Source of the DNA: an uncultured Clostridia bacterium | Lineage (GTDB): Bacteria > Bacillota > Limnochordia > Darwinibacteriales > Darwinibacteriaceae | Length of the DNA stretch: 36,586 nucleotides | Assembly: GCA_900018335.1 (NCBI GenBank) | Contig: FIZK01000006.1 | Location: 69,576 to 106,161 of the forward strand | Reading direction: 5' to 3' | Shown here: positions 12,409 to 16,868 of the stretch, one piece after another | Layout of the letters: each line of letters starts with the position of its first letter | How positions within the stretch are numbered: position 1 is the first letter of the stretch | Made by a program: the position numbers and the translations under genes | Notes under the pieces: model-generated | Databases searched by the model: none | What the model was told of the DNA's origin: nothing | Seen by the model: only the letters and a program-made list of their open reading frames with translations

Positions 12409-13887
12409 ATGCCAAAGGATAGGTTCTCGATATCCAAGAAGCTGGAGGACAACTTAGCGGTGCTGGAAGCGGAGCTCGGTTACGGAGTCACCTTCGATCT
12501 GGTGTTCCGCAAACTAAAGATAGCTCATAAGCAGTCGTGCCTGGTCTTTTTTGACGGTTTCGTTAATGATGTGGCGGTGATCCACATCCTCCGGGCTCTG
12601 CAGGCTGTGCCGCGCACTGGGGTGACCTTTCACGCACTGAAACAGGACCTATATGACCGCATTCCCTACTTCGAACTGAGTAGCGCCGATGACCTGGAAG
12701 CGGCCATGGATCAGCTCCTGTCCGGCGCCATGCTGCTGCTCGTCGATGGTATGCAGGAAGTGGTTGTACTGGATGTGCGCCAGTACGTGGTCAGGGGTTC
12801 GGAAGAACCCGCCTTGGAAAAGGTGACAAGAGGCTCCCGAGACGGGTTCGTGGAAACCGCTCTGTTTAACATCAACCTCATCCGGCGCAGAATCCGCGAT
12901 CCTAATCTCCGCTTTGAAGCGCTCCAGGTGGGCAGGAGGTCCAAGACGGATGTGATGATCGGTTATATCAAAGACGTGGCCGATCCCAGTCTGATTCAGG
13001 AGGTCAAAGACCGCATCGGTGCCATAGATCGGGACGCTATTCCCATGGGCGGCAAGAACCTGGAAGAATATATCCTGGGTACGGTTTTTAACCCACTGCC
13101 CGTGACGCGCTATACAGAACGCCCCGATGTGGCCGCTGCCCACCTGTTGGAGGGCCATGTGGTCATAATCGTGGACACCACGCCCTTTGTACTCATTGTC
13201 CCGGTCACCCTCTGGCACTTTACTCAGCATGCGGAGGAGTACTTCCAGAACCCTCCGGTAGGTACCTATTTGCGCTGGATTCGCACGGCAGGCATTTTTG
13301 GCTCCCTAATACTCTTGCCCTTGTGGTACACCCTCTCCGTGAGCCAAAACCTGCCTCCCTGGATAGCCTTTATCGGGCCAAAGGAGCCGGGGCGCTTGGC
13401 ACTCTGGCTGCAGCTGCTCCTATTGGAACTGGGCCTGGATTTGATCCGCATGGCTCTGATCCACACCCCCGACTCCCTGGCCACCTCCTTAGGTATAGTG
13501 GGAGCCATTATCCTGGGAGATCTGGCTGTATCCATTGGGTTGTTCACAGGTGAAGCCATTCTCTACACGGCCATCACTGCCATCTGCAGCTTTGCCACAC
13601 CCAGCATAGAACTGAGCAATGCTCTGCGCCTTTTTCGCTTCGTGCTGTTTTTCGGAGCGGTTGTGGCCGGCTGGTGGGGCCTTGGCGCGGGGCTGCTCGT
13701 CACCTTTCTCACCATGGGCTTAACCAAATCCTTTGGCATACCCTATCTATGGCCTTTGATCCCCTTTGACGGCCCCGCGCTGTTAAGGGTGATCTTCCGC
13801 TATCCCATCCCCCAGGTAGCGGTGCGTCCCCGGCTCACTCAACCGCAGGATCTGCGCGCCCAAAAGCGAGACAAAAAAAGGAGGTAG
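12409..13887 (+). CDS. spoVAF: GerA-family spore germination protein, SpoVAF-like
   Basis: GerA architecture: GGKNLEEYILGTVFNPLPVTRYTERPDVAAAHLLEGHVVIIVDTTPFVLIVPVTLWHF and C-terminal TM region. Confidence 0.85.
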   Translation: MPKDRFSISKKLEDNLAVLEAELGYGVTFDLVFRKLKIAHKQSCLVFFDGFVNDVAVIHILRALQAVPRTGVTFHALKQDLYDRIPYFELSSADDLEAAMDQLLSGAMLLLVDGMQEVVVLDVRQYVVRGSEEPALEKVTRGSRDGFVETALFNINLIRRRIRDPNLRFEALQVGRRSKTDVMIGYIKDVADPSLIQEVKDRIGAIDRDAIPMGGKNLEEYILGTVFNPLPVTRYTERPDVAAAHLLEGHVVIIVDTTPFVLIVPVTLWHFTQHAEEYFQNPPVGTYLRWIRTAGIFGSLILLPLWYTLSVSQNLPPWIAFIGPKEPGRLALWLQLLLLELGLDLIRMALIHTPDSLATSLGIVGAIILGDLAVSIGLFTGEAILYTAITAICSFATPSIELSNALRLFRFVLFFGAVVAGWWGLGAGLLVTFLTMGLTKSFGIPYLWPLIPFDGPALLRVIFRYPIPQVAVRPRLTQPQDLRAQKRDKKRR

Positions 13888-13892
13888 CTGCC

Positions 13893-14804
13893 ATCAGGCA
13901 GATCGGGATTCCCCGCGCGCTATACTACTTCCAATACTATCCTCTCTGGGAAACCTATCTGGCCGAGTTGGGCTTTGAGGTAATCACTTCGCCTCCCACC
14001 AATCAGGAGATCCTGGAACTGGGGCTGACGGCATGCGTGGACGGAGCCTGCCTGCCCCTTAAAGCCTTTGTGGGGCACGTGCGGTTCCTGGTCAATAGGG
14101 GGCTGGAGCTGCTCTTCGTACCGCAGGCGATCAGTGTCGTTCCAGGTGAGTATACCTGTACCAATCTGCTTGGACTGCCGGATCTCGTTCAGCAGTATAT
14201 CCCTTCCTCCGTACGGCTGCTCTCCCCTGCCCTGGATGCCCGGAAGGGAGCAGGGAAAATCTCCTTCAGCTACCTGCGCTGCGGCTTGGAATTTGCCTCC
14301 GCGCTGCGAGTCCTCAAGGCCTGGCAGACTGCCCAGGCCGCCCAGCGCCAAGTTGATACAGCTCCCAAAGCAAACGGCTCTACTGGTCGGGGTTTGAACA
14401 TCCTGATCCTGGGACCGCGCTATTTGACCGACGATGCCTATTTGAACGGCGATCTCATGGGGAAACTGGCAGCATTGGGTGTGCAGGTCACAGCGGCCGC
14501 CGCGTTCCCCGATTCCATTACGCTTCCCGCCAGTCGTTCTCTAGCCAAAAGGCCGTTTTGGACGAGCATGCGACGCTCCCTGGGTGCCCTGGAGCATTGC
14601 TTACACCGTGTTGACGGGGTTATCAGCTTGGCGCCTTTTGCCTGCGTAGCGGAGGCGATGCAGGGAGTAATGGTCGCTGAGCGCACTGCCAAAACCGAGT
14701 GCGCCCACCTGGAGCTCCATGTGGACGAACACAGCAGCCCGGTAGGTCTGGTGACGCGCCTGGAGGCATTCTGCGATCTTTTGGAAAGGAAACGACGCGG
14801 ATGA
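13893..14804 (+). CDS. CoA-dehydratase-activase-related protein (COG3580/DUF2229-like)
   Basis: Frame extends upstream of the track start (TTG 13968) to (I)RQIGIPRALYYFQYYPLWETYLAELGFEV, the conserved N-terminus; TACVDGACLPLKAFVGHV; AUC at 13893 spaced 7 nt from AAAGGAGGT. Confidence 0.8.
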   Translation: MRQIGIPRALYYFQYYPLWETYLAELGFEVITSPPTNQEILELGLTACVDGACLPLKAFVGHVRFLVNRGLELLFVPQAISVVPGEYTCTNLLGLPDLVQQYIPSSVRLLSPALDARKGAGKISFSYLRCGLEFASALRVLKAWQTAQAAQRQVDTAPKANGSTGRGLNILILGPRYLTDDAYLNGDLMGKLAALGVQVTAAAAFPDSITLPASRSLAKRPFWTSMRRSLGALEHCLHRVDGVISLAPFACVAEAMQGVMVAERTAKTECAHLELHVDEHSSPVGLVTRLEAFCDLLERKRRG

Positions 14805-15889
14805 GAATCACCTTTCCCCACCTGGGAAACGCCTATATCGCAGTGGAGTCCCTTCTTAGAGGTCTGGGGCATGAACCGGTCACACCTCCCCTCACGAACC
14901 GCCAGACCTTGGAACGGGGGAGTTTCCATAGCCCGGCAGAGATGTGCCTGCCCTTCAAAATCTCTTTAGGCAACATGCTGGAAGGGATCGACTTGGGGGC
15001 GGAGAGCGTGTTGATGATCGGCGGTTGGGGCCCCTGCCGTTTAGGTTACTACGGGGAGATCCAAAGGCTGCTCCTGGAGGCTTTGGGCAAGGAAGTTGAG
15101 TTTATCACTTTGGAAGTACCCAGGGGGAACTATTCCAGGTACATGGTCCACCTCCAGAAGCTGACTGGTTCCACCAAGTTCGACCATCTTAGAAGCGGTG
15201 CCAGTTTGAGCTGGGCAAAGCTAAATGCCCTGGAGGAACTGGAAATCTTAGCACTGCAAACCCGTCCCAGGGAAAAGAAGCGCGGCGCCACCACGGGGTA
15301 TTTGCAGTACCAGCTAGAACAGCTGAGGGCAGCCGAAACCGTTCAGGAGGTGGAGGAGATTCTGTCCACCGCTAGCCGAGGGTTTCTCAGACTCAGGGCA
15401 CGGGAGCAGAACCGGCCGCTGCGGCTGGGCGTGGTGGGGGAGATCTATACAGTGATGGATCCCTTTTCCAACCTGCGCCTGGAAGAACGTTTGGGTTACC
15501 TTGGGGTAGAGGTGGTGCGCACCATCAGCCTTGCGGAGTGGGTGAAAAACCATATCTTTAAGAAGGCCCTGGGCCTTTACAGCCTTGCGCCGCTGCGGCG
15601 TCTGGCAGCAGGTTATCTGCGCGGCTTTATCGGCGGCCACGGGTTGGAAAGTATAGCGCGCAGTGTGGATTTGGCCCGAAAGAACCTGGACGGCGTTGTG
15701 CACGTCCTGCCCCTATCCTGCATGCCCGAGATCGTAGCCCGGGGCATTCTTCCCCGTGTCAGCCGGGATCACGGAATCCCCGTGCTCTCCCTCATGGTGG
15801 ATGAGCACACGGGGGAAGGGGGCTTTCAAACTAGGCTGGAGGCCTTCGTAGATATGGTGCAAAGGAGGGTAGGGCGGCTTGGGAAGTAA
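14801..15889 (+). CDS. CoA-dehydratase-activase-related protein (COG3581-like)
   Basis: MRITFPHLGNAYIAVESLLRGLGHEPVTPPLTNRQTLERGSFHSPAEMCLPFKISLGNMLEG..GGWGPCRLGYYGEIQ; ATGA overlap with upstream gene. Confidence 0.85.
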   Translation: MRITFPHLGNAYIAVESLLRGLGHEPVTPPLTNRQTLERGSFHSPAEMCLPFKISLGNMLEGIDLGAESVLMIGGWGPCRLGYYGEIQRLLLEALGKEVEFITLEVPRGNYSRYMVHLQKLTGSTKFDHLRSGASLSWAKLNALEELEILALQTRPREKKRGATTGYLQYQLEQLRAAETVQEVEEILSTASRGFLRLRAREQNRPLRLGVVGEIYTVMDPFSNLRLEERLGYLGVEVVRTISLAEWVKNHIFKKALGLYSLAPLRRLAAGYLRGFIGGHGLESIARSVDLARKNLDGVVHVLPLSCMPEIVARGILPRVSRDHGIPVLSLMVDEHTGEGGFQTRLEAFVDMVQRRVGRLGK

Positions 15890-16868
15890 AAGCAAGCCTG
15901 TTTACCTGGGAGTTGACGTGGGCAGTGTGAGCACCAACTTCGTGCTCCTCGACGCAGAGGCAGCCGGAGCTTCCGTGGTCTGGAAAAAGTACCTGCGAAC
16001 CCAGGGGGCACCCCTGGTGGCGCTAAAGACCGGCCTGGCCCACATGGCCCAAGAAGGCAGCTGGCGGATAGTTGGCGTGGGGGCCACGGGTAGTGGCCGG
16101 GAGCTTGCCGGCGTAGTGCTGGGGGCAGATGTGGTCAAAAACGAAATCACCGCCCATGCCACAGCGGCCTTGAGCTACGACAGCAATGTGTCCACCATTT
16201 TGGAGATCGGGGGTCAGGATTCGAAGCTGATTATCCTGCGCGATGGGGTGGTCGTAGATTTTGCTATGAACACGGTATGTGCGGCTGGAACCGGTTCATT
16301 TCTAGATCAACAGGCGCACAGACTTGGCATTCCCATCGACGAGTTCGGCCAAGTGGCGCTGCGCAGCACAAGCCCCGTGCGCATTGCTGGGCGGTGCACT
16401 GTATTTGCTGAATCAGACATGGTGCACAAGCAGCAGCTGGGAGTGGATATCGCGGACATCGTGGCGGGTTTGTGCCAAGCCATGGTCCGCAACTTCCTGA
16501 GCAGTCTTGCTAAGGGTAAAGAGCTCTTGCCCACTGTCTTTTTCCAAGGAGGGGTGGCGGCCAATGCCGGCATGCGCCGCTTCTTTGAAGAAACCTTGGC
16601 ACAGCCCATCTACATTCCGGAGCACTACGATGTGATGGGGGCAATTGGAATCGCCCTCTTGGCTGCGGAAGCGCTGGCGGAGGGACACAAGCCGACACGG
16701 TTTCTCGGTTTGGAGAGTGTTCTGCGCAGCGAGGTTGCCGCCCAGGTCTACGAATGCCAGCGCTGCCCGAACGCCTGTGAAATCTCGGAGATTTGGCGTG
16801 ATGGGACGTTCCTGGCCAGTTGGGGAGCGCGCTGCGGCAGACAGGGTAGGGCGGATCAAACCAGCTAG
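15879..16868 (+). CDS. BadF/BadG/BcrA/BcrD-type (HgdC-like) ATPase activator
   Basis: YLGVDVGSVSTNFVLLD, ILEIGGQDSKLI, NTVCAAGTGSFLDQQAHRLGI, FFQGGVAANAGM; TTG start after AAAGGAGGG. Confidence 0.92.
   Translation: MGSKSKPVYLGVDVGSVSTNFVLLDAEAAGASVVWKKYLRTQGAPLVALKTGLAHMAQEGSWRIVGVGATGSGRELAGVVLGADVVKNEITAHATAALSYDSNVSTILEIGGQDSKLIILRDGVVVDFAMNTVCAAGTGSFLDQQAHRLGIPIDEFGQVALRSTSPVRIAGRCTVFAESDMVHKQQLGVDIADIVAGLCQAMVRNFLSSLAKGKELLPTVFFQGGVAANAGMRRFFEETLAQPIYIPEHYDVMGAIGIALLAAEALAEGHKPTRFLGLESVLRSEVAAQVYECQRCPNACEISEIWRDGTFLASWGARCGRQGRADQTS

Follow-up and report, generated by a model that had tools for sequence, protein, structure and literature searches.

Gene finders presume that a coding sequence begins with ATG, GTG or TTG, and the locus described here raises the question of where translation begins in a frame that offers none of these codons at the expected site. 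The window, i.e. the whole stretch of 36,586 nucleotides that was analysed, contains a gene for a COG3580 / DUF2229 protein whose reading frame is open for 41 codons 5′ of an ATC codon, back to the nearest upstream stop (TGA, 13767). Between this TGA and a TTG at 13968, no ATG, GTG or TTG is found in frame, and TTG 13968 is the sole codon of the three before the conserved core ends. A sequence-only reading had described this open frame and a near-perfect Shine-Dalgarno (SD) sequence 7 nt upstream of the ATC, and both descriptions were confirmed at their positions. The relevant features are as follows.

12409–13887, forward strand: GerA-family spore germination gene (PF03323, E = 3.9e-146).
13877–13885, forward strand: extended SD sequence AAAGGAGGT, within the 3′ end of gerA and 7 nt 5′ of the ATC (duplex with the anti-SD, −12.5 kcal/mol).
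13888–13901, forward strand: mini-hairpin CTGCC-ATCA-GGCAG, part of the minimum-energy fold and judged a chance feature of the source genome.
13893–13895, forward strand: proposed AUC start codon, at a site occupied by ATC or ATT in 14 of the 23 family genomes and by ATG, GTG or TTG in the remaining nine.
13893–14804, forward strand: COG3580 / DUF2229 protein, 303 aa (PF09989, E = 1.2e-38).
14801–15889, forward strand: partner protein, HGD-D / COG3581-like (PF06050, E = 5.8e-10).
15879–16868, forward strand: acyl-CoA dehydratase activase-like ATPase, third gene of the cluster (PF01869, E = 2.2e-44; TIGR00241, E = 9.3e-50).

Read directly from the sequence, AAAGGAGGT is followed by 7 nt and then by ATC. 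The protein that begins at this codon matches PF09989 with 133.3 bits (curated cut-off 29.4), and position 1 of the Pfam DUF2229 profile aligns to residue 3, which places the ATC at the expected site of the initiator Met. The local sequence elements carry little weight by themselves. An SD sequence followed by ATC or ATT is matched 32 times in the window, with 19 matches expected by chance, and ~2% of the window positions lie inside the loop of a 5-bp hairpin; thus, neither element is informative alone. What raises the ATC above chance is that the start position and the class of codon are kept in relatives.

The source DNA belongs to contig G000:C6; the draft genome comprises 145 contigs and 1.79 Mb in total. 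The family set consists of 23 genomes from nine genera, the relatives all being draft assemblies and several of them incomplete. Homologues were located by an alignment-based scan of the genome contigs, and start codons were read by alignment of each locus. The COG3580 gene is present in all 23 genomes. In 14 of these, from genera g1, g3 and g9, the homologous codon is ATC (six genomes: G000, G001, G003, G004 and G005 of g1 and G013 of g9) or ATT (eight genomes: G016–G022 of g9 and G007 of g3), and no usable canonical start is available there. This comparison of close relatives, which had been suggested from the sequence as a check, agrees with the claim of a real AUC start. In every ATC or ATT gene, the SD sequence is spaced 6–8 nt from the codon with a duplex energy of −10.8 to −14.7 kcal/mol, whereas codon −1 is not conserved among relatives. 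The nine other family members use canonical starts. Two g2 genomes (G006 and G014) have TTG exactly at the homologous position, G002 of genus g1 has GTG, aligned one codon 5′ of that position, and six genomes (G008–G012 and G015) have ATG. Because the g2 TTG lies at the exact site and the other canonical starts are at most about one codon away, the site is taken to be the start position of the family. In the wider order, the COG3580 gene begins with ATG, GTG or TTG. For nearly all named public relatives beyond the family, a canonical start can be read no more than about two codons from the expected site, and class-level outgroups with a readable start are canonical, save for one ambiguous case (G050). 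Taken together, these alignments strongly support a real, conserved near-cognate start.

Two loci are noted separately. The copy L010 on contig C124 of G010 cannot be told apart from that of G017, either in its start region, over the stretch that was read, or in its match statistics, and G010 also holds its own divergent copy, with an ATG start, on C155 (L052). L010 may represent contamination of the G010 draft genome and was excluded from the counts. At locus L111 (~2931; INTA.CYC.159, an unrelated Clostridia draft), the COG3580 gene has no canonical start nearby and reads GGAGGTAAAATT-ATC-AAA-ATC-GCA, with ATT-ATC placed behind GGAGGT; this locus is a possible independent near-cognate case.

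The start codon lies at a tight gene junction. The gerA gene is found immediately upstream of COG3580 in 31 of 31 order-level loci, and its stop codon (TAG, 13885–13887) overlaps the end of the SD sequence, 5 nt 5′ of the ATC. The distance from the gerA stop to the start codon is 4–8 nt in 13 of the 14 ATC or ATT genomes; counted from the first base of the stop, it is 8 nt in g1, 4 nt in most g9 genomes and 25 nt in G007. At the other end of the gene, the partner has an ordinary ATG start, which overlaps the COG3580 stop by 4 nt (ATGA), and this overlap is kept in all ATC or ATT genomes that are readable at that junction. The two junctions place COG3580 within a tightly coupled chain of genes that runs from gerA through COG3580 and the COG3581-like partner to the activase.

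Based on these observations, the COG3580 gene is likely to have a conserved near-cognate AUC or AUU start that is served by a strong SD sequence and probably by coupling to gerA, and at which initiation would be low and sensitive to IF3. In this mechanism, the AUC at 13893 would be read as fMet by the ordinary initiator tRNA, and the strong SD, ideally spaced and located inside the end of gerA, would make the codon usable. Ribosomes that finish gerA a few bases upstream would probably add to the supply for initiation. Since a mismatch to the initiator anticodon arises at the third base, initiation should be inefficient and destabilized by IF3; little COG3580 would be made, and more would be expected under limiting IF3. 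In vitro, weaker third-base pairs are excluded by IF3 (PMC10158994), and in E. coli re-initiation too is sensitive to IF3, although less strongly when an SD sequence is present (PMC2268962). The low efficiency, the IF3 dependence and the coupling to gerA are inferred for COG3580, as is any advantage, for instance a set ratio to the ATGA-coupled partner. Near-cognate initiation works in this lineage, as the infC start is ATT in 20 of 20 readable family genomes, behind GGAGGGGTGACACC (G000:C6:255, L034 and 19 others). In light of the infC literature, the lineage probably retains IF3 autocontrol. A hallmark-pattern search revealed no alternative initiator tRNA for AUC or AUU, the initiator-type tRNAs carrying only CAU. 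Two pattern matches with other anticodons were considered as a special initiator tRNA and rejected, since ARAGORN found no tRNA in either.

It is also possible, with appreciable but lesser probability, that the ATC or ATT start is real and merely tolerated, such that gerA coupling and the strong SD suffice and the codon drifts without regulatory meaning. Consistent with this alternative, the gerA stop lies close upstream in all but one of the ATC or ATT genomes, the near-cognate codon has been lost to a canonical one inside genus g1 (G002, GTG), the choice between ATC and ATT follows genus, and the other near-cognate starts of the region, described below, likewise lie at tight or overlapping gene junctions. 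That nine family members have switched to GTG, TTG or ATG further indicates that AUC or AUU is not strictly required. Against it, ATG is one mutation away and yet absent in 14 genomes with well-mixed synonymous sites, and G007 retains ATT even though its gerA gene ends 25 nt upstream. In these 14 genomes, which were chosen for having ATC or ATT, just one of the 25 invariant four-fold columns contains pyrimidines alone and G is missing from two; in most cases, then, a third base free of selection would somewhere have become G, giving ATG. A Fitch count of purine/pyrimidine changes over a 20-genome clade gave 2 at the start codon versus a mean of 4.7 over 62 four-fold columns, on a tree that is weakly resolved in the middle and on which no fewer than two label changes must be assumed. 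Six of the 62 columns are as low as the start codon, and this proportion, p of only ~0.10, is one that a tolerated codon could accommodate. The counts are suggestive of a near-cognate codon kept by selection. In combination with the established precedents, these mild signs of third-base selection make translational restraint, as the favoured mechanism has it, plausible.

The remaining explanations fare far worse. It is highly improbable that COG3580 is made as a fusion to GerA, whether by frameshifting or by readthrough, or from a start further upstream. The frame open upstream of the ATC and a run of seven A residues that precedes the SD in the source genome would permit such an arrangement, but the A run is missing from most relatives. 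Moreover, the offset between the gerA stop and the COG3580 frame has the value 2 in g1 but 1 in both g9 and g3; a gerA frameshift is therefore not a conserved device. In-frame stops 6–18 codons upstream in many relatives (6 codons in G004 and G005) block an upstream start or readthrough, and, together with the variable offset, led to rejection of a conserved fusion. Initiation at TTG 13968 is equally hard to credit. While no canonical start codon precedes it in frame, its use would drop the invariant residues G5, P7, R8 and W19, in agreement with the earlier expectation that it would remove the conserved N-terminus, and TTG is missing at that codon in several relatives (e.g. G003, G005 and G013). 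Lastly, a single-base assembly or sequencing error with a true codon of ATG, which the sequence-only reading had offered as an alternative and which the draft state of the 145-contig source genome might invite, is scarcely conceivable and was rejected, as it would have to recur across 14 assemblies: the same class of codon stands at the same site in 13 other genomes with proteins 49–65% identical, independent assemblies of species ~50–65% identical in this protein cannot share such an error, and some of the 13 are separately produced public records, e.g. UBA3910.

The placement of the ATC in the tetraloop of a small hairpin had also been pointed out. The 5-bp stem is indeed present and appears in the minimum-energy fold, but at the same position in relatives 0–4 of the 5 pairs can form, and the stem is conserved in none of them. 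A functional start-codon hairpin was rejected on this ground, and the comparison across relatives indicates that the hairpin is incidental to the start.

A survey of ~105 conserved genes from the syntenic ~100–115 kb of five family genomes, a small sample read by eye, pointed to two genes beyond infC and COG3580 for which a canonical start is lacking in two or more genomes. The first, a spoVD/ftsI-like gene (G000:C6:36277, L168; loci L168–L191), has an apparent CTG start behind GGAGGAGTAGAAG, located 8 nt after GGAGG and overlapping the end of the upstream gene. Among 20 family loci of this gene, 14 have an in-frame TAG directly 5′ of AAG-CTG, four have TGG and the remaining two have TTG; hence, the TTG that would be a possible start elsewhere is gone in 18 of the 20. 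The second is an unnamed conserved gene of ~290 aa (G000:C6 ~57298, minus strand; L198–L202) with an apparent ATA start in five g1 genomes, where the ATA overlaps the upstream stop as ATAG; other genera have ATG or GTG. In an adjacent stretch no more than one weak near-cognate candidate turned up, and one did so in a control family. A conserved gene of ~156 codons in the control family has AGGAGG followed by ATC or ATT and lacks a canonical start in the vicinity (L231, G031 41266; L241–L242, G024 40850). A broader reading would hold that this order of uncultured Bacillota uses conserved near-cognate starts far more often than is seen elsewhere, where a few per genome are known, and that an IF3-responsive set, comprising the AUC/AUU COG3580 gene, the CUG spoVD/ftsI-like gene, the AUA gene of ~290 aa and the AUU infC gene, connects proteins linked to the cell envelope and to sporulation with the condition of the translation machinery. 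This reading is considered unlikely.

With respect to annotation, standard gene finding would trim 25 residues, invariant ones included, from COG3580 in 14 genomes. To our knowledge, only a handful of conserved near-cognate starts have been documented. Comparative detection without proteomics could add many more, and could reveal genes that bacteria keep under start-codon control. The COG3580 start itself is probably a built-in brake on protein amount.

The best-known precedent is infC, which begins with AUU, AUC or AUA and is autoregulated by IF3, so that the gene senses its own product. As in infC, the COG3580 gene combines an AUC or AUU start with a strong SD sequence and no nearby canonical start, and the arrangement is kept between species. 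In contrast to infC, its product is unrelated to translation, and any effect of IF3 would therefore be one-way; in addition, its start lies at the gerA junction and is replaced by canonical codons in some relatives. Streptomyces sigR starts with GTC (GTT in two species) behind a conserved extended ribosome-binding site (RBS), is repressed by IF3 and is coupled to a partner gene with a demonstrated stoichiometric role (PMC5472188). COG3580 resembles sigR in its conserved near-cognate start with pyrimidine variation at the third base (ATC/ATT versus GTC/GTT), its extended RBS and its place as the first gene of a coupled pair. The two differ in gene and codon, and the IF3 repression and stoichiometric role were shown for sigR, while COG3580 is read from sequence. 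In S. aureus, cvfC1 (AUU) and ccpN (AUA) have an extended SD and reach ~10% of AUG expression (PMC13009471). These are likewise Bacillota genes with conserved AUU or AUA starts and extended SD sequences, although their low efficiency was measured and that of COG3580 is inferred. Among 61,358 ancestral AUG starts in a comparative reconstruction, a single one had changed to AUU (PMC5622118), which makes a family-wide AUC or AUU start rare. No earlier report of a near-cognate start in a COG3580 gene was found. The near-cognate start is new for COG3580, and it is of a kind already known from infC, sigR, cvfC1 and ccpN.
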